Shown here in pieces: positions 13,017-41,531 of a stretch of 64,000 nucleotides of DNA. The stretch lies in contig DASRDP010000058.1 of NCBI GenBank assembly GCA_035652535.1, positions 62,001 through 126,000 of the forward strand, written 5' to 3'. The notes under the pieces were generated by a model. That model saw only the letters and a list, made by a program, of their open reading frames with translations, did not search any database and was not told the DNA's origin. The DNA comes from Chloroflexota bacterium (lineage in GTDB: Bacteria; Chloroflexota; UBA6077; SHYK01). Made by a program: the position numbers and the translations under genes. Within the stretch, counting starts at the first letter, position 1; the number at the start of each line of letters is the position of its first letter.

Positions 13017-16000
13017 ATGATCGATCTGCTGGTCTTCACGCTCCTCACCGCCGCCTGCGTCCTCCTCGTCCGGCGTGTCCGCCTTCTCGGCTTCGCCGCC
13101 CTTCGGCCCCCAACAGGGCTGTTCGCTTCAATGGCCGCGCGAATCGCGGGGCCCGAGGAGACGGAGGCGCACCCACCCCCCCTGCGGCCCACGCCCCCGA
13201 TCGCGGCTCCGCCCGTGACCGCCGACGAGGAAGCTCCCGGATGGGCGACGGCCCCGCCGTCCCGCGAGCCGGAGGCCGTCGCGGAGGGCGCGGTCGCCCC
13301 GCCGTATCCGCTCTCTCGGCGGCTCGCCGTCTCCTGGATCGCCGCCGCCGGGCTCTCCACCGCCGCGATCCTCTTCCAGCACCAGCTCTGGCTGAATCAG
13401 GACAATCTTCGGCCGTTCTGGGCGCTGCTCGCTACCTCGACGGCCGCGGCGCTGGCGCTATGGATCGGAGCACGCTGGCCCCAGTCCCTGCCAAGCAGCG
13501 GAGGCGCAGGGCCGCCCGGCGCCAACCGCGTCGGCATGTGGCTCGCGCGACGCGCCCCCGCGATCTTTGCCCCCGGCCCGCGGCGTTCGGCGGTCACGGG
13601 CGTGCAACTCCTCGTCGCGGCGGCGGTCGGCGCGGCTGCCTCGATCGGGCTCTTCTGGACCGAGCGCCACGGCGGAATCGCGTGGGTCCTGTACGTCGCG
13701 GCGTGCGTGCTCTTCCTTGTGGGCGTCTGGCTCCTGACTCGAGCGACCGTCGAGGGACTGGTCGGAAGCTGGCAACGCTCGGACTCGATCGCTATCGGAA
13801 TCGCCCTGCTGTCCGCCTTCGTCGCGCGGACGTGGTCGCTGAGCGACGTGCCGCGCGGTGTGTGGTTCGACGAATCGTTCCATGCCATCTCGATCGCCAT
13901 GCGTGTGATGCAGGACCCCACATATCGGCCGATCTGGCTGCCCGGAATCGCGCCGGAGGCCGCCGCATACTGGTTCCTGACCATTCCCTTCCTTGCCCTC
14001 TGGCCCCACGACCCCATGGCCATTCGCTTGCCCGCCGCCATCAGCGGGACGCTCGCGGTGGGGGCCGTCTATCTCCTGGCCCGGGGCCTCTTCGATCGAC
14101 GCGTCGCCATCGCGGCCGCGGGGCTGAGCGTCGGGCTGGTCTGGCAGCTCAATTTCAGCCGGATCGCATTCAACGCGATGAGCTCGGTGTTTCTCGACAC
14201 CTTTGCCGCCGCGCTCTTCGTCGCCGGGTTGAAGCGGAGGAACACGTTCGCGTTCGCCGCTGCGGGACTCTCCCTCGGCGTCGGCTTCAATTTCTACTAC
14301 ACGACGCGCGTCGCGATTGCGGTCCTCGCGGTGGTCGCAGCGCACCGGATCCTCTTCATGCGCCTGGCGTTCTTCCGCGATTACTGGCGAGGCATCGCGC
14401 TCTTCCTCGTCGGCATCGTCCTCGGGGCGAGCCCGATTCTCGAGTACGGCGTGCAGCATCCGGACGAGTTCAACCAGCGCATGGGCCAGGTCACCGTCAT
14501 GACGGAGATCCGCCAGGCGAATAGCTGGCAGCCTCTCGTCAACAACGTGCGGGCGCACCTCCTGATGTTCGACGTTCGCGGCGACCCCAACGGGCGCCAC
14601 AACTGGACCGGGCGGCCGATGTTGAGCCCCGTGATCGGTGCCATGGCCGTCCTGGGGCTGATCCTCGCGCTGTCGCAGATCGCTCGATGGACCTATGTGC
14701 TTCCGCTGGCGTGGTTCGTGCTCATGCTGGCAGGAGGCGTATTCTCCGTGACGTGGGAGGCGCCGCAGGGGCTTCGAACGATCGACGAGGTAACCGGCGT
14801 CGCCCTATTCGCGGGAATCGGCATGGGCGCCCTGTGGGGGACGCTGCAGGCCCTTCTCGGCGGCGCCCTGCGCACGGTGCCCGTCGGCGCGATCCCGGGC
14901 GCGCGCGTGGGCGGGGGCTTGCGCCTGCGCCTCGCCGGGGTCGTTTCCGGCATCCTTGCCATCGCGCTGGTCAGCGGCACCAGCGCGACGGAGATCAGCC
15001 GCTACTTCACCGTGCAGCAGCGAGACAACCGCACCTGGGGCGAGTTTCTCACGCCGCAGGCCGAGGCGGCTCGCCGGATCAATCGGGTGCCGACCGACTG
15101 GAAAGTGCTCGTCGACCCCTTCTTCGCCGGCGATCCCAGCGTCCAGTTCCTGCTGAACCCAAAGCGCGACCTCGTCCCCTTCGAGCGGACCGATCTGCCG
15201 GTCACGGGGGCGGGAGCCGCGGCCATCTTTCTTTCTGACCGTGAACCGTCTCTCGCCGACCGAATCGCTCAGCTCTACCCGACAGCCCAGGAAGACACCG
15301 TCACGACCCCCAGCGGCGACCACATCGGGATGTACGAATTTCAGCTCGGGCCCGAGGACATCCAGGCGACGGAGGGGGTTCTCGCGCACTATGGGGTCGG
15401 CGACCGGAGGATGGACCGGCGTGAAGCGCGCCTCGATTTTCCCTGGCCAGCCTCGACGCCGATGCCGGCGCCGTTTCCGGCGTCCTTCGAAACCACCCTG
15501 AGCGCGACGACGTTCGGGAGTTATCGCTTCCGATTGGAGGGCCCGGGCGATGCGACCGTGACGATCGACGGCGCTCGCGTCGTCAGGGGCGGCCAGGAGG
15601 CGGCAATTGCGCTGGCGAAGGGGCCCCACGCGCTCCGGGTCGACCTCTCCGACGCCGGTTTGGCGCCACTCCGCCTCCTCTGGGCGCCTCCGCAGCAGGA
15701 GCTCGGGGACGTCCCCATCGACGTGCTGCACGCGCCGCCAGTCCGGGTGACCGGGCTCCTGGCCAAGCTGTACAACGGCCGCGAGCCCACGAGCCAGCCA
15801 GCGATTGAGGAGATCGATCCCTCGGTCGATATTCGCGTGAACGCGATCCCGCTGCCCCGCCCGTACAACGTCGAGTGGACCGGATCGATCCTCGCGCCGC
15901 AGGATGGGACGTACCGGTTCGGTACCAACAGCATTGACTCCAGCACCCTCTGGATCGACGGCCAGCAGGTCCTGACGAATACCGCACCCAACGCCATGGT

Positions 16001-17018
16001 CGAGGGGACGATCCAGTTGAGCGCGGGCTGGCACGACATCCGCGTTGGCTGGCTGGACGCGACGGGATTCACCCACATCCAGATGTCCTGGACGCGGCCG
16101 GGCGGCGCTCCGGAGACCGTGCCAAGCCAGGCCCTCCGCCCGTGGCCGCCGGCGGTCATCGCCGAGGCGCAGCCATCTGACGCGGATGTCGCGCAGGCCG
16201 CCGCCCTCCTGTCATCGCAGCCGATCGCGCGCGGGGAAGCCCCCCAGGCGCCCACGAGCGGCACGGTTCTGGCAGGGTCCACTGCCCTCTCTCAGCCGCG
16301 GGGCGTGACCGTCACCCCGGACGGTACGACGTACATCGCCGACGCCGGGCGCCGTGCCATCATCGAGATCCCGCCCGACGGCGGGGCGCCGCGCGCCCTG
16401 GCGCAGGGTCAGTTGAAGGAGCCGTCGGCGGTCGCGGTCCTGCGCGACCGAACGGTCCTGGCGCTCGACGCCGGTGCCGGGGCCATCTGGCGGATCGACA
16501 TGGACACCGGGAAACTCGGCGACCGCTTCGCGCCGGATCAGGGCTTCTACGGGCCGCGTGGCATCGCGGTCGCGCTCGACGGTCGCGTCGCGGTGGCGGA
16601 CACCGGCAACAATCGGATCGTCATCATTCCATCGACGGGCTCCGGTGCCCAGGTGATCGGAGGCCTTCGAGAGCCAACCGACGTGGCCTTTCTGCCGGAT
16701 GGGAGCTTGTTGGTCGCGGAGACCGGCGCGAAGCAGATCACCATCGTTCGGTCGGATGGCGGTCGAGTCTCGAGCTGGCCCATGCCCGAGGCCTATACCG
16801 TCGTCGGTCCGCACGTTGCCGTGCTGCCGCGCGGGGGCTGGGTGGCCACGGCGCCCGAAGCGCGAACGCTGCTGCGGATGGCGCCGAACGGTCGGGAGCC
16901 GCAGCAGTGGGGAGTCGACACCGGGTTCAAGAAGCCCGTCGGCATCGCCGTGAGCGCGCAGGGGATCGTCGTGACGGACACCGACGCAGGAACGGCCACG
17001 ACCTACCGAGCGCCGTGA
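13017..17018 (+). CDS. PMT/ArnT-like membrane glycosyltransferase with PA14 and NHL domains
   Basis: A 1333-residue protein. Residues 1 to about 680 are hydrophobic with many spans and resemble GT39/GT83 lipid-linked-sugar transferases. RGVWFDESFHAISIA carries the Asp285-Glu286 pair at the site of the catalytic acidic motif in the first outside loop. A Pro/Glu-rich cytoplasmic linker lies at about 45-95. About 822-890 is a divergent PA14-like sheet, and 910-1029 is a clear PA14 domain (GLLAKLYNGREPTSQPAIEE, APQDGTYRFGTNS). From about 1091 to the end are NHL-type repeats such as GPRGIAVALDGRVAVADTGN. PA14 and NHL domains usually bind carbohydrate or protein and should lie outside the membrane. 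It is the first gene of the cluster. The donor and acceptor are unknown. Confidence 0.82.
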   Translation: MIDLLVFTLLTAACVLLVRRVRLLGFAALRPPTGLFASMAARIAGPEETEAHPPPLRPTPPIAAPPVTADEEAPGWATAPPSREPEAVAEGAVAPPYPLSRRLAVSWIAAAGLSTAAILFQHQLWLNQDNLRPFWALLATSTAAALALWIGARWPQSLPSSGGAGPPGANRVGMWLARRAPAIFAPGPRRSAVTGVQLLVAAAVGAAASIGLFWTERHGGIAWVLYVAACVLFLVGVWLLTRATVEGLVGSWQRSDSIAIGIALLSAFVARTWSLSDVPRGVWFDESFHAISIAMRVMQDPTYRPIWLPGIAPEAAAYWFLTIPFLALWPHDPMAIRLPAAISGTLAVGAVYLLARGLFDRRVAIAAAGLSVGLVWQLNFSRIAFNAMSSVFLDTFAAALFVAGLKRRNTFAFAAAGLSLGVGFNFYYTTRVAIAVLAVVAAHRILFMRLAFFRDYWRGIALFLVGIVLGASPILEYGVQHPDEFNQRMGQVTVMTEIRQANSWQPLVNNVRAHLLMFDVRGDPNGRHNWTGRPMLSPVIGAMAVLGLILALSQIARWTYVLPLAWFVLMLAGGVFSVTWEAPQGLRTIDEVTGVALFAGIGMGALWGTLQALLGGALRTVPVGAIPGARVGGGLRLRLAGVVSGILAIALVSGTSATEISRYFTVQQRDNRTWGEFLTPQAEAARRINRVPTDWKVLVDPFFAGDPSVQFLLNPKRDLVPFERTDLPVTGAGAAAIFLSDREPSLADRIAQLYPTAQEDTVTTPSGDHIGMYEFQLGPEDIQATEGVLAHYGVGDRRMDRREARLDFPWPASTPMPAPFPASFETTLSATTFGSYRFRLEGPGDATVTIDGARVVRGGQEAAIALAKGPHALRVDLSDAGLAPLRLLWAPPQQELGDVPIDVLHAPPVRVTGLLAKLYNGREPTSQPAIEEIDPSVDIRVNAIPLPRPYNVEWTGSILAPQDGTYRFGTNSIDSSTLWIDGQQVLTNTAPNAMVEGTIQLSAGWHDIRVGWLDATGFTHIQMSWTRPGGAPETVPSQALRPWPPAVIAEAQPSDADVAQAAALLSSQPIARGEAPQAPTSGTVLAGSTALSQPRGVTVTPDGTTYIADAGRRAIIEIPPDGGAPRALAQGQLKEPSAVAVLRDRTVLALDAGAGAIWRIDMDTGKLGDRFAPDQGFYGPRGIAVALDGRVAVADTGNNRIVIIPSTGSGAQVIGGLREPTDVAFLPDGSLLVAETGAKQITIVRSDGGRVSSWPMPEAYTVVGPHVAVLPRGGWVATAPEARTLLRMAPNGREPQQWGVDTGFKKPVGIAVSAQGIVVTDTDAGTATTYRAP

Positions 17019-18983: not shown

Positions 18984-21900
18984 ATGGGCTCAAGAGACTC
19001 AATCAGGTACCATGAAAACCGCATGAGCAGCGAAGACCCCCACGTCTACGCGCGGCAGCAGGGCGATCCCCCATCGTCGCCCCCGGTGACTCGCCTCGGA
19101 CCGCAGGATCCGCCCTCATCCGCCATCGAAGGTTCCCCGGCAGCTCCGCATGCGACGTCGATCGACGGCGACTCGCCGCGCCCACGCGACGCTTTCGACG
19201 ACGCGGAGCGCGGACTGAACGGCAGCTCGGCTGACGTGGAAGGCGGACGGGAACCGGACGGCCACCGGGAGCGATGGCGCGTCCGGCGCGCCCTGGCGAG
19301 CATGCGGGCACCACGGCTGCGGCTCGCCCGATCGACGCGAATCGTCGTGGGGCTCCTCATCATCGCCGCCGCGCTTCGGCTCTACGGCCTGGACTGGGAC
19401 CAGGGACATCACCTGCATCCAGACGAGCGATTCGTCACCGGCGTCGCGGCCGGGCTCAAGCTCCCCAGCCTCGACCACTACTTCGATACCGCGACGTCGC
19501 CCCTAAACCCAAACCGACCGCAGGGCGGATCGTACGTGTACGGGACGTGGCCGCTGTTCGTGGTGCGGGTGAGCGGGGAGATCGTGAGCGACCTCGTCCG
19601 CGTCGTGATCCCGCAAGGGGACGCGTCCGGACTTCTCCAGCATCTTCGTGAGCTGACGAGCTATGACAACATCTATCTCCTGGGACGGGCATGGTCCGCC
19701 GTCGCGGACGTGGCGACGATCTTCGTCATCTACCTCATCGGGCGTCGGCTGTACGGCGCGGCCGTCGGCGTCCTGGCAGCCGCGCTCGCCACATTCACCG
19801 TGCTTCAAATCCAGACGGCCCACTTCTTCACCGTTGAGGCGCCCCTCACCCTCTTCGTCACGCTCGCCTTCTACTACGCCGTGCGCGCGTCCGCTTCCAA
19901 CGCCCTTCGGGACTGGAGCCTCTTCGGGGTCATGATGGGGTTGGCCGCGGCGACGAAGCCGACCGCGCTGATGCTTGCGGTCGTCGCGGGCGGCGCGGCC
20001 GTCCTGCTCTGGTATCGCACGGCGCGGCTCGGGGCGCACCCCGAGCGCCGGCACCGGCTTGCCGAGGACATCGCCACCGGCCTCTTCTCCGCGGGCGCGC
20101 TCGCGTTCCTCGCGTTCCGCCTGACCCAGCCGTACACGTTCAATGGTCCAGGAATCTTCAACATCACGCTCAACCCGAGGTACGTCGAAGTCTTCAACAA
20201 CTTCCAGCACATCGGTGTTGGGGACGCCGACGTTCCCTTCAACGAGGTTTGGGCCGGGACGACGCCGTACCTCTGGCAGCTCGCCCAGATGTTCCTGTGG
20301 GGAATGGGACCGCCCTTCGCCGTCGCCGCGTGGGGCGGGGTGATCCTCGCGGGAGTCCAATTCGTCCGGGATCCCCGCCGCTATTTGATCCACTCGCTGG
20401 GCTTGCTCTGGGTCCTGGCCAACTTCGCATATTGGGGCATGCAGTTCACCAAGCTCATGCGGTACATGCTCCCGATCTACCCGCAGCTCACGATCTTCGC
20501 CGCCCTCCTCGTCGTCACGATCTGGCAGCACGCTCGGCGCTCGAGACCACGCGCCGTTCGGGCAGTACCCGGACCCGACGTGCGCGGCGCCGCGTTGCAA
20601 GCGCTGCGGATCGGCGGGCGGCCATGCGGCGTGGTCGTCGTGGGCTGGACCGCGCTCTATGCCATCGCGTTCATGGCGATCTACACCAGGCCCGTGACCC
20701 GCGTGGCGGCCTCTGAATGGATCTATGCCAACGTTCCCGCCGGCGCCAGCGTCGCCAGCGAGCACTGGGACGATCGTCTGCCGCTGGGCATGACCGGCCA
20801 CCAGGACACGTTCAAGGCTGTCGAGCTGCCCCTCTACGCCGACGAAACGCCGGAGAGCCGGGCGACGCTGATCTCGCGACTCGATCAGAGCGACTACATC
20901 GTCGAGTCGAGCAACCGCCTCTACGGATCGATCCCCCGCAACCCCCGTCGTTATCCGATGGGCACGCGCTACTACCAGGCGCTGTTCGACGGCGAGCTGG
21001 GGTTCGACCGCGTCGCGGAGTTCACGTCACGCCCGACAATCCTCGGCTTCGAGTTCAACGACGACGCGGCGGAGGAAAGCTTCACCGTCTACGACCACCC
21101 GAAGGTCACGATCTTCCGGAAGGGTGATCGCTACACCAGCGATCAGGTCCACGCGGTCCTCGACGCGGTGCCCGTCGAGCAGGCGCTACGCGGCTTGAAG
21201 CCGATCCGCGCCTCCTCGCACGGGCTCCTCCTCGATGCGGCCACGGCGGCCGCCGACCGCGCGGGCGGAACCTGGAGCGCCATCTTCGACCGCGGCTCGC
21301 CGGCCAACTCGCTGCCGATCCCCATCTGGTACGCCACGGTCGAGGCGCTATCCGTCCTGGCGCTTCCACTGGGCTGGCTGGTCTTCCGTCGCCTCGGCGA
21401 CGCCGGCTACCCGCTGGCCAAGACCATCGGCATCCTCCACATCGCCTACGTGCCCTGGCTTCTGGGGAGCCTGCACATCGTTCCCTATACGACCCTCTCC
21501 ATCTGGATCGGGATGGCGTCGCTTGCCATCGCATCGGGAATCGTATTGATGCGTCACCGAAGGGCGTTCCTCGCGGACTACGCGGCGCGGGGAACCGTCA
21601 TCGTGGCGACCGAGACCATCTTCCTCGTCACGTTCCTCGGATTTACCCTGCTGCGCTCCGTGAATCCGGACCTGTGGCACTCGGCCTACGGCGGCGAAAA
21701 GCCCATGGACTTCGCCTACCTCAACGCGACCATCAAGACGACGTGGTTTCCGCCGTACGATCCGTGGTTCGCGGGTGGCTACCTGAACTACTACTATTTC
21801 GGCTACGTCATCGTCGCGTCGCTCATCAAGCTGACCGGCATCGTACCGTGGGTCGCCTATAACCTGGCGATCCCAACCATCGCCGCGCTCGTCGCCGTGT

Positions 21901-23831
21901 CCATCGCCTCCGCCATCTACAACCTCCTCATCGCACGCCCGGACGCCCCGCGCCGTCGGCAGCTCTGGGCGATCGGCGGTGGCGTGGCCGGCGTGCTGCT
22001 GGGCATCGTCGGTGGCAACCTGCATCCGATCGGGCAGATCTTCACCTGGTTCACCAAGCTCGACCCGACGCCAGTACAGACGTTTATCCCCGGCGTGACG
22101 GGCACGTTGAGCCTGGCTCGCGGCCTGTGGATCTGGGCCACCTCCTTTGGAAATGGTCTTCCGCCCCTCAACTTCGACTTCTGGGCCCCAACGCGCGTGA
22201 TCTCGACCGAGCCAACCATCCCGATCACCGAATTTCCGTACTTTACGTTTCTGTATGGAGACCTCCACGCCCACATGATCGCCATGCCCGTGGGGCTTCT
22301 CGCCGTCGCCCTTGTCATCAATCTCGTCCGGCAGCCGGCGTGGATCCCGTCCGTGGTGGGAACGGCGTGGACCGAAAGGTGTCGCGACGGCGCCGTCGCG
22401 TTGCGTACCCCCGGCGCCCTCACGTTGTTCGGAGCCGCCCTCAGCGTTGGGATCGCTCGGATGGCCAACTCGTGGGACTTTCCCACGTACCTGGGGCTCA
22501 CGGGCGCGGTGCTCCTTCTCTCCGAGGCGCTTCGACGGCCGGTGGACTGGTGGGGCGCCATCATCCGCAGCGTTGTCCTCGCCGGCGCGGTTGTGGTGGC
22601 CAGCCAGCTGCTGATCTTCCCCTACCTCCAGAGCAACGAGCTGTTCTACACGGGCGTCGAGATCAATCATGCCCACACCATCGCGCTCCATTACGTGACG
22701 ATACTGGGGAGCTTCCTGGCGGTCTTCGCCGTGTACCTCGGCTTTCAGCTCTGGGGACTGCGCGGTCGCATCGGTCTCGGCGTTCTCGGCGCCTTGGGGG
22801 AGATCAGCGCCCCGACCACCGCGCACTCGATCGCGTCGGCGGAGACGGCGCTTCGGCGCTCCTCCGTGCAGGGCCAAGCCGTCCCACTTCAGCGGGAGCG
22901 ATCGGCGGCGATCCTTGGGGCGGTCGCCGTCTTCTTGGCAGCCCTGCTGGCCATGGCAGGGCTCCCGGTCATCGGCATATCGCTCCTCTTCGTTGCGGCG
23001 ATGGCCGTGGTCGCGCTCTTGAGGCCGCTTCCCGCCGCGACCGCGTTCGCGTTTCTCCTCGCCGCGACCGGGTTCGCCATCACGTCGGGCGTCGAGGTCT
23101 TCGTGCTCAAGGGCGACCTCGGACGGATGAACACGGTGTTCAAGTTCTACCTGCAGGCGTGGCTCTTCTTTGCTATCGTCGCAGGAGCGATGCTGGCGCT
23201 CCTCACGCGTCGAGCCTGGGGATCCAATTGGCTCCGCCACGGAAGACGGCGGGTCGTTGCCGGCGCGCTTGCGCTGATCCTGGCCATCCCGTTTCTTTAC
23301 ACACTCCTGGGAACGCCCGTGAAGGTCAGCGCGCGGTTCGTGGACCTGAGCCCGACCATCGACGGGATGGCGTACATGCGTTTGGCGCACTATGGCGACG
23401 ATAAGGGTGACATGGTGCTTCCGGACGATTACGCCGCGATCAACTGGATGTTGGACCACATTCAGGGCTCGCCGGTGATCGTCGAGGGCATCGCGCCCCT
23501 CTATCACTGGCGCTCCCGCGTGTCCGTGTACACGGGCCTTCCCACCGTCATCGGCTGGGACTGGCACCAGACGCAGCAGCGGGGCGACTTCGCGTACATG
23601 ATCGAGGGGCGCCTGAAGGACACCGACAAGATCTTCACCTCGACCTCGCCCGAGGAGGTTCGCCAGCTCCTCGACCGCTATCAGGTGGCGTACGTCTACG
23701 TCGGGGGGCTCGAGCGCGCCTACTATCCAGCGACGGGGATCCAGAAGTTTGAACGCATGGTCGGTCCAGGATTCGAAAAGGTGTACGAGCAGGGGGTCGT
23801 GACCATCTACCACGTGGTGCGGAGCTCTTGA
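18984..23831 (+). CDS. Fusion of PMT-like glycosyltransferase and Chlor_Arch_YYY (DUF2298) domain
   Basis: A 1615-residue integral membrane protein. About 115 disordered, charged residues come first. A GT39-type half follows (about 120-770), with HHLHPDERFVTG near 143 as the acidic motif and QTAHFFTVEAPLTLFV and AATKPTALML in the spans. The second half (about 780-1615) is a YYY domain: GGEKPMDFAYLNA near 900, GGYLNYYYFGYV near 932, RMNTVFKFYLQAW near 1381, and a soluble end with GLPTVIGWDWHQTQQRG. ATG 18984 is the longest start; ATG 19023 is equally possible and neither has a strong ribosome site. The next gene starts inside its stop codon. The YYY family is known mainly from Chloroflexi and Archaea and has no established reaction. 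Confidence 0.8.
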   Translation: MGSRDSIRYHENRMSSEDPHVYARQQGDPPSSPPVTRLGPQDPPSSAIEGSPAAPHATSIDGDSPRPRDAFDDAERGLNGSSADVEGGREPDGHRERWRVRRALASMRAPRLRLARSTRIVVGLLIIAAALRLYGLDWDQGHHLHPDERFVTGVAAGLKLPSLDHYFDTATSPLNPNRPQGGSYVYGTWPLFVVRVSGEIVSDLVRVVIPQGDASGLLQHLRELTSYDNIYLLGRAWSAVADVATIFVIYLIGRRLYGAAVGVLAAALATFTVLQIQTAHFFTVEAPLTLFVTLAFYYAVRASASNALRDWSLFGVMMGLAAATKPTALMLAVVAGGAAVLLWYRTARLGAHPERRHRLAEDIATGLFSAGALAFLAFRLTQPYTFNGPGIFNITLNPRYVEVFNNFQHIGVGDADVPFNEVWAGTTPYLWQLAQMFLWGMGPPFAVAAWGGVILAGVQFVRDPRRYLIHSLGLLWVLANFAYWGMQFTKLMRYMLPIYPQLTIFAALLVVTIWQHARRSRPRAVRAVPGPDVRGAALQALRIGGRPCGVVVVGWTALYAIAFMAIYTRPVTRVAASEWIYANVPAGASVASEHWDDRLPLGMTGHQDTFKAVELPLYADETPESRATLISRLDQSDYIVESSNRLYGSIPRNPRRYPMGTRYYQALFDGELGFDRVAEFTSRPTILGFEFNDDAAEESFTVYDHPKVTIFRKGDRYTSDQVHAVLDAVPVEQALRGLKPIRASSHGLLLDAATAAADRAGGTWSAIFDRGSPANSLPIPIWYATVEALSVLALPLGWLVFRRLGDAGYPLAKTIGILHIAYVPWLLGSLHIVPYTTLSIWIGMASLAIASGIVLMRHRRAFLADYAARGTVIVATETIFLVTFLGFTLLRSVNPDLWHSAYGGEKPMDFAYLNATIKTTWFPPYDPWFAGGYLNYYYFGYVIVASLIKLTGIVPWVAYNLAIPTIAALVAVSIASAIYNLLIARPDAPRRRQLWAIGGGVAGVLLGIVGGNLHPIGQIFTWFTKLDPTPVQTFIPGVTGTLSLARGLWIWATSFGNGLPPLNFDFWAPTRVISTEPTIPITEFPYFTFLYGDLHAHMIAMPVGLLAVALVINLVRQPAWIPSVVGTAWTERCRDGAVALRTPGALTLFGAALSVGIARMANSWDFPTYLGLTGAVLLLSEALRRPVDWWGAIIRSVVLAGAVVVASQLLIFPYLQSNELFYTGVEINHAHTIALHYVTILGSFLAVFAVYLGFQLWGLRGRIGLGVLGALGEISAPTTAHSIASAETALRRSSVQGQAVPLQRERSAAILGAVAVFLAALLAMAGLPVIGISLLFVAAMAVVALLRPLPAATAFAFLLAATGFAITSGVEVFVLKGDLGRMNTVFKFYLQAWLFFAIVAGAMLALLTRRAWGSNWLRHGRRRVVAGALALILAIPFLYTLLGTPVKVSARFVDLSPTIDGMAYMRLAHYGDDKGDMVLPDDYAAINWMLDHIQGSPVIVEGIAPLYHWRSRVSVYTGLPTVIGWDWHQTQQRGDFAYMIEGRLKDTDKIFTSTSPEEVRQLLDRYQVAYVYVGGLERAYYPATGIQKFERMVGPGFEKVYEQGVVTIYHVVRSS

Positions 23832-39594: not shown

Positions 39595-40737
39595 TCAGGC
39601 GCGGACCGCCGCGCAGAGATCCGCGAGGCATCCCGCTTCGATGGCGTCCCGCGCGGCGCGTGCGAGGTTGCAGGCGAACGCGAGATTGTGGATCGCGGCC
39701 AGGCGGGGCGCGAGCAGCTCGCCGGCCACGAAGAGATGGTGGAGGTACGCGCGCGTAAAGGTCACGCAGACGGCACAGCCGCAGCCGTCGTGGATGGGTC
39801 GAAAGTCGTCGCCGTACGCATCGTCCAACAGCTGGAGCCGCCCGGAGGCTCCGTACACGACCCCCGCTTCCGCCAGCCGCGCCGGCGCGTCAGAGGCGAC
39901 GATGTCGCACCCGAGGGCGGCGAGGGCCGGTAAGTCGCCCAGCTCGGCCGCCACGATGATGCGAGGCTTGTCGTCGGGCAGCGCCGAGGTGGCGACGCCG
40001 ACGAGCTCGGCGCGAAGGGGCGTCGGCGCTGATGGGAGGCCGTCGACCGTAAAGCCGTCGAAAGGAAGAGAAGCGACGCCGGCTGCGCTCGCATGGCGCA
40101 GGTCCGGGAAGGTCCCGCCGACGGCGCAGCCGAAGAGCCAGACGTCCGAGCGCGTGCGCGCCTCGAGGGCGTCGCGCCCCCACGTGAGGCTTCGGTCCAC
40201 GGCCGCGCGCGCCCGACTGGGGCTGGCCGCTCCCGACAAGTCAGCGAGGGCGCACATGCCGTCGACGCCGAGCCGCTCCTGATCCACGATCGCGCCCCGG
40301 GCCGTGAGGACGCGAGCGGATCCGTCGACGTGAGACACGTACTCCAGGCCGTCCAACCTCACCCGCCGCAGGGGCGGCCGCGCCCGGAGCACGGCGCCTT
40401 CCGTGTCCCCAGTGGAGGAGGACCGTGCGGAAATCGACCCAAATATGGCGCGGGCGCCGCTCTCCGCAATCACGATGCCAGACCATCCCTGAAAGCGATG
40501 CAGGCCGCCGAGGGACGCCACGACGTCGACGCCGCTGCGCAGCGTGAGATCGTAGAGGCTCACCATCAGGGCTGCGGCGCCCACGCCAGCGATGTCGGTC
40601 GGCGTGAGCCGCCGCTCGACGCTGTGCGGGCCCGCCGGCACGAACGCGGGCGTGGCGATCGAACCGTGTCTCCCCGTCAGCACCCCGGTTCGAGCACGGC
40701 CGTCGACGGCGTGGATGGCGAACCGCGCTGGGCTCAA
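39595..40737 (-). CDS. tRNA-guanine transglycosylase paralogue with altered active site
   Basis: A 380-residue TIM-barrel protein related to Tgt, which exchanges guanine for preQ1 in tRNA. The zinc site is intact: C319, C321 and C324 in GCGCAVC, plus His350 in AAIHN, followed by the typical YLHHLFVAGELLAPRL. An Asp at 278 (CDIV) fits the nucleophile. Base-recognition elements are not kept: DSGGFQ reads ESGARA (92-97), IVQGG reads CAVGG (204-208), GGLAVGE reads VDGLPSA, and FDE near 163 is ALADL. It is therefore unlikely to bind preQ1 or queuine in the normal way. The start is TTG 40737 with no clear ribosome site. It converges on mutL, with adjacent stop codons. Confidence 0.8.
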   Translation of the reverse strand: MSPARFAIHAVDGRARTGVLTGRHGSIATPAFVPAGPHSVERRLTPTDIAGVGAAALMVSLYDLTLRSGVDVVASLGGLHRFQGWSGIVIAESGARAIFGSISARSSSTGDTEGAVLRARPPLRRVRLDGLEYVSHVDGSARVLTARGAIVDQERLGVDGMCALADLSGAASPSRARAAVDRSLTWGRDALEARTRSDVWLFGCAVGGTFPDLRHASAAGVASLPFDGFTVDGLPSAPTPLRAELVGVATSALPDDKPRIIVAAELGDLPALAALGCDIVASDAPARLAEAGVVYGASGRLQLLDDAYGDDFRPIHDGCGCAVCVTFTRAYLHHLFVAGELLAPRLAAIHNLAFACNLARAARDAIEAGCLADLCAAVRA

Positions 40738-40763
40738 GGGCGCAGAAGCCCGGGGGCGATCGA

Positions 40764-40793
40764 TTGACCGTCCGATTTAGCGGATGGTATCGT
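40764..40793 (+). promoter_or_regulatory. Promoter of tRNA-Leu
   Basis: TTGACC (40764-40769), an 18-base spacer and TATCGT (40788-40793). The predicted start, near 40800, is just before the tRNA 5' end. Confidence 0.72.
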
Positions 40794-40803
40794 GACACGT
40801 GTC

Positions 40804-40885
40804 GGGGGAGTGTCGGAACTGGCAGACGAGCGTGACTTAGGATCACGTGCCGAGAGGCGTGCGGGTTCGAGTCCCGCCTTCCCCA
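40804..40885 (+). tRNA. tRNA-Leu (anticodon UAG)
   Basis: An 82-base class II tRNA. The acceptor stem GGGGGAG pairs with CTTCCCC at 40878-40884. The D-loop is CTGGCAGAC, the anticodon loop CTTAGGA reads CUN leucine codons, and a short variable arm (TGCCGAGAGGCGT) is present. The T-arm is GCGGGTTCGAGTCCCGC. The bases after the discriminator A are CCC, so the CCA end is not encoded. Confidence 0.96.
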
Positions 40886-41021
40886 CCCAGGGCAGGTCGC
40901 TTCCCCCCAAGCTGCAGACCTCGCACGTTCGTTCGTCCATCTTGCCCACCGGCGTCCCCATGGTGAAGCGCACCGGCCCGATCTGTCGGCGGATGTGTAC
41001 ACTCCTCGGTAGAGGGGAGTC

Positions 41022-41531
41022 GTGGAAGACGTCTGGAATGGCCTCCTCGACCACTTCGAGGCCCGGGCCGACTATTTTCGCATCTTCGATCGCTATCGCA
41101 TGCGCCCCGACTCCTGGCTGCAAGTCGAAGCGCTCGCGACGCTGCTCCCGCTGGCCGGCTCCCGGATCCGCGACCTTCGGCCCGACCATCATGGGTGCGA
41201 CGTTTGGCTCGCCACAGCTGACGGGGAGTGGTGGCTCATGGTGCAGAGCCTCCTCACCAGCTATGCCGGCGCCGGGCGGGACGCGCGGCCGACCGTCATC
41301 TCGGTCGAGCAGGTCGCGCGCGAGATGGATAAGCTCAGTGGGCTCGCCATGCTCTCCGGCGGGCGCGGGGCCCTGCTCCTCGCGGCCTTCCCGTTTGGAC
41401 CCGAGCCGCGCGAGCGCGATGAGTGGAAGAGCCAGCTCCTTCGATTCGAGGCGAAGGGATTCGCGCTGTCTGGACTCCGGACCGTCTCCCTGCGGCCCGA
41501 GCGCGAGTGCCGCATCTACATGTTCGCGTAG
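41022..41531 (+). CDS. Hypothetical protein
   Basis: A 169-residue soluble protein I do not recognise. It starts at GTG 41022 with AGAGGGGAG upstream, so translation is well supported. The middle reads CDVWLATADGEWWLMVQSLL and RPTVISVEQVAREMDKL, mixed alpha/beta with several Trp residues and no signal peptide or membrane span. The acidic-strand pattern around CDVWLA could be compared with PD-(D/E)XK nuclease folds, but the key Lys is missing, so no function is claimed. It lies between tRNA-Leu and a small membrane protein. Confidence 0.75.
   Translation: MEDVWNGLLDHFEARADYFRIFDRYRMRPDSWLQVEALATLLPLAGSRIRDLRPDHHGCDVWLATADGEWWLMVQSLLTSYAGAGRDARPTVISVEQVAREMDKLSGLAMLSGGRGALLLAAFPFGPEPRERDEWKSQLLRFEAKGFALSGLRTVSLRPERECRIYMFA

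Follow-up and report, generated by a model that had tools for sequence, protein, structure and literature searches.

A dead Tgt2 descendant as the predicted non-catalytic subunit of a heterodimeric TGT in a bacterial order

Bacterial TGT is treated as a homodimer, and in the Zymomonas mobilis (Zm) enzyme the β1-α1 loop-helix of each subunit packs on the αE and αD helices of its mate, with F92 of one subunit and W326, Y330 and H333 of the other forming an aromatic hot spot (PMC5395182). The active residues of the enzyme are Asp102 and Asp280, and preQ1 is stacked on by Tyr106 (PMC6165067). In both the Z. mobilis and the human TGT, the dimer is believed to use a single active site at any one time (reviewed in PMC13416341). 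The E. coli enzyme, on the other hand, is able to take up two tRNAs while contacts across the subunits are few (PMC13416341); help from the partner in handling tRNA is thus not universal. Queuine-salvaging bacterial TGTs, for example that of Chlamydia, typically carry GG[LS][AS]G at the pocket (PMC11570991). The eukaryotic enzyme, known from mouse and human, is a QTRT1:QTRT2 pair in which QTRT2 has the Tgt fold and keeps the zinc site, has its catalytic Asp residues and base-binding residues replaced, and coexists with a catalytic paralogue; why a catalytic and a dead subunit are used is unexplained (PMC6165067). A works-like analogy is offered by the tRNA deaminase ADAT2/ADAT3, which combines a catalytic subunit with a structural paralogue (PMC7713142), although it is eukaryotic and unrelated to Tgt in fold and reaction. 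A bacterial case of catalytic plus dead TGT subunits was not found described in the open-access papers searched. Here we report a bacterial protein that shares the listed features of QTRT2, and weigh what it may do.

The gene, tgt2, occupies 39595..40737 on the minus strand of the window, by which we mean the whole 64,000-nucleotide stretch of DNA analysed. It encodes 380 aa from a TTG start, its stop abuts the end of mutL, to which it lies tail to tail, and its start is 66 bp from a divergent tRNA-Leu(UAG) gene (40804..40887, plus strand). Pfam gives a full-length match to PF01702 (253 bits, E 5e-75, residues 14-377), and phmmer matches the protein to Z. mobilis Tgt with E 1e-56. An AlphaFold2 model, for which the input alignment consisted of Tgts from other phyla, has a mean pLDDT of 86.5 and a pTM of 0.87, with very low confidence only in residues 101-122, the insert after the former DSGGFQ. 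Foldseek superposes this model on the Zm and T. maritima Tgts with TM 0.85-0.93 (about 0.9), and the overlay on the Zymomonas enzyme proposed in the initial annotation thus returns a Tgt fold. With its full-length fold and CxCxxC...H zinc site the protein belongs to the Tgt superfamily (PF01702/TIGR00449), and the ORF is a real Tgt-fold protein. The GC3 of the gene is 0.86 and the mean over called genes in the window is 0.82, which marks tgt2 as an ordinary gene, not a composition-relaxed relic. On the other hand, the protein scores 221.8 bits with the Tgt equivalog TIGR00430, below the curated cutoff of 306.75, compared with 425.6 bits for the genome's own Tgt1 and 465.7 bits for the intact Tgt2 orthologue L053. 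Automatic annotation guided by the superfamily model would probably label the gene an active Tgt. A single-protein search of genome contigs with the window protein returned only canonical Tgts of other phyla and so added no member to its family.

Two other features of the window were observed along the way. Beyond the tRNA-Leu lies an ORF of 169 aa (41022-41531, plus strand), and an ORF of the same length stands in the same place in a relative (L036:6265-6771); neither has a Pfam match. Two very large proteins encoded close together (18984-23828 and 13017-17015, both plus strand) carry glycosyltransferase-like membrane domains, namely DUF2298 with PMT_2, and PMT_2 with PA14 and NHL repeats.

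In alignments with Zm Tgt, the general-base and stacking motif D102-S-G-G-Y106 corresponds to a degenerate E92-S-G-A-R96 (40450..40464, minus strand); the canonical DSGGFQ reads ESGARA, with A95 for G105 and A97 for Q107. The base-recognition residues D156 and Q203 are replaced by A165 (40243..40245, minus strand; middle FDE changed to LAD) and V206 (40120..40122, minus strand; IVQGG changed to CAVGG). GGLAVGE has become DGLPSA(P) (40027..40044, minus strand), where D232 and A237 stand for G229 and E235, and V262 replaces M260. The initial annotation, which had described all four motifs as changed and base recognition as lost, is borne out by these replacements. It was mistaken in seeing a retained nucleophile in D278: this residue aligns with the structural D277 of Zm, the first Asp of GxDMFDC, whose column is invariant across all Tgts in alignment A3, and the column of the nucleophile D280 holds A281 in three alignments (D278 to A281, 39895..39906, minus strand). 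The nearest Asp, D283, is two columns off, and the nucleophile is therefore lost too. By alignment, every catalytic or base-recognition residue is gone from the window protein. A pocket restored at shifted positions had been set beforehand as the refutation of such a reading, and the three alignments do not restore it.

What is retained lies elsewhere in the protein. The zinc ligands, correctly recognized from the start, are C319, C321 and C324 (39766..39783, minus strand; Zm C318, C320 and C323; invariant in 7/7 decayed copies, see below) and H350 (39688..39690, minus strand; Zm H349). The αD/αE dimer face is likewise present as F327, Y331, H334 and E340 (39718..39759, minus strand), equivalent to Zm W326, Y330, H333 and E339. 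The β1-α1 loop is eroded (40612..40635, minus strand), residues 35-42 reading AGPHSVER against VGTAATVK at Zm V45-K52. The protein thus resembles bacterial Tgts (TIGR00430; Z. mobilis, E. coli) in fold, zinc site and αD/αE face, and differs from them in its missing catalytic residues, its score below the equivalog cutoff and its eroded loop.

A second, canonical tgt was sought in the window's genome (G000) and found on another contig (tgt1; 458.8 bits with PF01702), about 1.2 kb from queA. The genome further has queC and queG; a search of it gave no qng1. This set (tgt1, queA, queC and queG) should allow de novo queuosine synthesis, with Tgt1 as the transglycosylase. The window protein is thus QTRT2-like in that catalytic residues are lost, the zinc site is kept and a catalytic paralogue is encoded in the same genome. 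In contrast to the eukaryotic pair, its presumed partner Tgt1 has a pocket of the preQ1 type (GGLSVGE) and is accompanied by a de novo Q pathway. In addition to the normal queC, the genome contains a weaker QueC-like gene scoring 96 bits (G000:C124:77220-77822), and each of the other four genomes in the window's family has genes of similar score.

Draft assemblies of 16 genomes of the order and 29 of the class were surveyed for relatives, and a second Tgt (Tgt2) occurs in many of them, marked by an insert after DSGGFQ and by GGSLGxSK in place of GGLAVGE. The gene of the queuine-releasing enzyme, qng1 (PF10343), directly adjoins Tgt2 in G008, G010, G013, G022, G024, G027 and G028, and lies elsewhere in the genome in seven more. 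Qng1 of G010 matches solved DUF2419/Qng1 chains with 333 bits; 7u91, one solved Qng1 chain, is that of Sphaerobacter thermophilus (PMC11592518), and this match points to Chloroflexota as the probable phylum. Given the GGSLG pocket motif and the qng1 neighbourhood, Tgt2 is probably a queuine-salvage Tgt, which would then be the likely ancestral type of the window protein. The fit of the intact orthologues is approximate, since the fourth residue of their GGSLG is L, not A or S, and the window protein itself, with its DGLPSA pocket in a genome devoid of qng1, does not fit. A third Tgt-like type was also noticed in several genomes of the phylum (L045:2227-3351, L069, L070, L071, L072). It forms its own clade (support 100), has GFGGWPL in place of GGLAVGE and the nucleophile loop FDSALPTRDAR, and barely passes the Tgt equivalog model (L045, 312 against 306.75 bits).

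Every decayed copy branches within the Tgt2 clade (SH-aLRT 92; 97/97 in a smaller careful tree). Within the window's family, tgt2 stands beside tRNA-Leu(UAG), a syntenic locus marker, in 5/5 genomes; the copy is intact in G002, partly decayed in G001 and dead in G000, G003 and G004. From tree placement and locus, the window gene is a Tgt2 gone dead in place. The divergent tRNA-Leu(UAG)/tgt2 arrangement, with its short common intergenic region (window 40738-40887; also L053, L054, L036 and L037), is conserved in five genera of one family, and coordinated expression of the pair is possible. Outside the family, decayed copies occur in three genomes that keep qng1, namely G007, G010 and G013, members of three other families. 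According to the careful tree, the pocket of Tgt2 has decayed at least twice independently, and gene order suggests more than two decays, because the f1 copies adjoin tRNA-Leu whereas those of G010 and G013 still follow qng1. A single decay event for the five long-branch decayed copies was considered and rejected: the tree program flagged a meeting of long branches, and f1 (tRNA-Leu) and G010 (qng1) are set apart by gene order. In G010 (L043:3798-5810, minus strand) the most degenerate Tgt2 is directly downstream of an intact-looking qng1, so that this genome retains queuine release and a dead Tgt side by side.

A total of 175 columns conserved in intact Tgt2 were scored across the seven decayed copies, which come from four families. 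Mean retention per column among the seven was 2.8 in the pocket, 2.7 in the β1-α1 loop and 4.2 elsewhere, compared with 5.2 in αD/αE and 7.0 for the zinc ligands. Y330, H333, E339 and F92 (Zm numbering) are kept in 7/7; K52 is kept in 0/7, and the loop retains 0.36 of the consensus. PDB mutants exist at Zm F92, K52, W326, Y330, H333 and E339, and we take K52 and E339 to be positions mutated to probe the dimer interface. These patterns bear on the idea of a relic en route to loss, according to which Qng1 was lost in the window's family, queuine insertion became unneeded and the gene is decaying functionless. The distribution of qng1 in that family agrees with it, as qng1 accompanies the intact copy in G002 and is missing, like an intact pocket, from G000, G001, G003 and G004; the very long branches of the decayed copies agree with it too. 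However, none of the seven copies contains a stop or frameshift, the GC3 of the window gene is normal, the zinc and hot-spot residues are kept in 7/7, and neutral decay would not spare the same 37 columns; moreover, G007, G010 and G013 show decay despite having qng1. We consider a functionless relic quite unlikely.

The same comparison addresses the suggestion, made when the locus was first described, that the protein may act on another base or on DNA. In principle, a TIM barrel whose pocket is new might have some other substrate, and D283 and E92 lie close to the former active site. The nucleophile column, though, reads A, D, S, S, E, S, D across the seven decayed copies, which leaves no acidic residue in common, and each pocket differs from the others. 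DpdA DNA transglycosylases share the Tgt superfamily with the window protein, but it matches neither the DpdA model NF041059 nor PADLOC, and a DpdA or defence role was accordingly set aside. A transglycosylase or glycosidase with a new substrate is, in our estimate, very improbable. Of the three roles originally proposed, that of a non-catalytic partner is the best supported, as pocket decay varies while the zinc site and one dimer face are invariant.

Further support for a partner role comes from the canonical Tgt, the matching face of which is lost in most paired genomes. Tgt1 was examined in 11 genomes of the window's order that also carry Tgt2. Its pocket retains on average 0.96 of the consensus and K52 is present in 11/11, yet Y330, H333 and E339 occur together in only 2/11 of these proteins, compared with 43/45 same-phylum Tgts without a Tgt2 partner (Fisher P = 4e-7, with relatedness ignored) and 21/21 Tgt2 (14/14 intact and 7/7 decayed). 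The replacements vary by family (H333Y or Y330F in f1, V/A in f2, Y330F in f4, T/W in f6 and H333S in f7), which indicates that the Tgt1 face was lost more than once. Two controls come from the same order: the single Tgt of G006 has an intact face, and G012, where only Tgt2 was found, has pocket, loop and face intact. Paired genomes of other orders (G022, G024, G027 and G028) show no erosion, so two Tgts alone are not enough. The face is still intact in Tgt1 of G001 and G002, and decay of the Tgt2 pocket therefore seems to precede loss of the Tgt1 face in the window's family, whereas in f2 and f6 (G005, G009 and G011) the Tgt1 face is lost with Tgt2 still intact. The order of events is thus not the same across lineages.

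We favour as likely the reading that the dead Tgt2 descendant is a non-catalytic heterodimer subunit with the canonical Tgt1, whose gene lies beside queA. A twofold homodimer has two identical half-interfaces. Here, both proteins conserve the half in which the Tgt1 loop would pack on the Tgt2 helices, and both show erosion of the half formed by the Tgt2 loop and the Tgt1 helices. Most simply, this would be because a heterodimer forms and neither homodimer is needed any more. Because the loop-helix packs on the mate's αD/αE, only the Tgt1-loop:Tgt2-helix half of the interface would survive, and with the opposing loop lost (K52) a normal Tgt2 homodimer is unlikely. In such a pair, Tgt1 would supply the active site and the β1-α1 loop-helix, Tgt2 would supply the zinc subdomain and the αD/αE helices on which that loop packs, and together they would hold tRNA and put preQ1 into position 34. 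If one active site per dimer works at a time, the Tgt2 pocket would be free to decay. Reciprocal erosion thus predicts a Tgt1:Tgt2 heterodimer; from it we infer both physical pairing and a need of Tgt1 for Tgt2. The intact Tgt1 face of G001 and G002 means that this dependence would not be complete in every lineage. Two further counter-points are F92, which decayed Tgt2 unexpectedly keeps in spite of the erosion of its partner face in Tgt1, and the sparse cross-subunit contact with tRNA in the E. coli enzyme.

Alternatively, the protein might be non-catalytic without pairing with Tgt1, either binding RNA (tRNA or other) as a homodimer or monomer or serving as a regulator, which in G010 might involve Qng1. 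Conservation of the zinc subdomain and of one helix face would suit this, as would the G010 dead copy still adjoining qng1 and the conserved divergent placement at tRNA-Leu. However, a Tgt2 homodimer would have no loop to pack on its own conserved helices, and the loss of the matching face in Tgt1 would be left unexplained. We judge this alternative unlikely, though slightly less so than a relic.

Turning back to the Tgt1:Tgt2 heterodimer and its eukaryotic counterpart, the window protein is bacterial, has its nearer match in bacterial Tgt (E 1e-56; QTRT2, E 5e-23), and nests in the bacterial Tgt2 clade (SH-aLRT 92, in a tree without eukaryotic rows), placing it apart from QTRT2 orthologues. 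This closeness, together with descent from a bacterial Tgt2, points to an origin independent of QTRT2, and on sequence grounds the resemblance to QTRT1/QTRT2 is convergent. We hold it somewhat more probable than otherwise that this order, probably of Chloroflexota, independently evolved an obligate heterodimeric TGT, in which Tgt1 is catalytic and the dead Tgt2 stems from a queuine-salvage enzyme, with the homodimer interface cut to one functional half, thereby replaying QTRT1/QTRT2 evolution with lineages at different stages. The division of labour seems to have arisen separately, and its stages are still living: both paralogues intact, the Tgt2 pocket decaying, and both eroded oppositely. 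These bacterial stages make the origin of the eukaryotic TGT testable and would allow catalysis to be told apart from the part that the second subunit plays in holding tRNA. They would also provide a natural example of a homodimer becoming a heterodimer where two paralogues are present in one cell.
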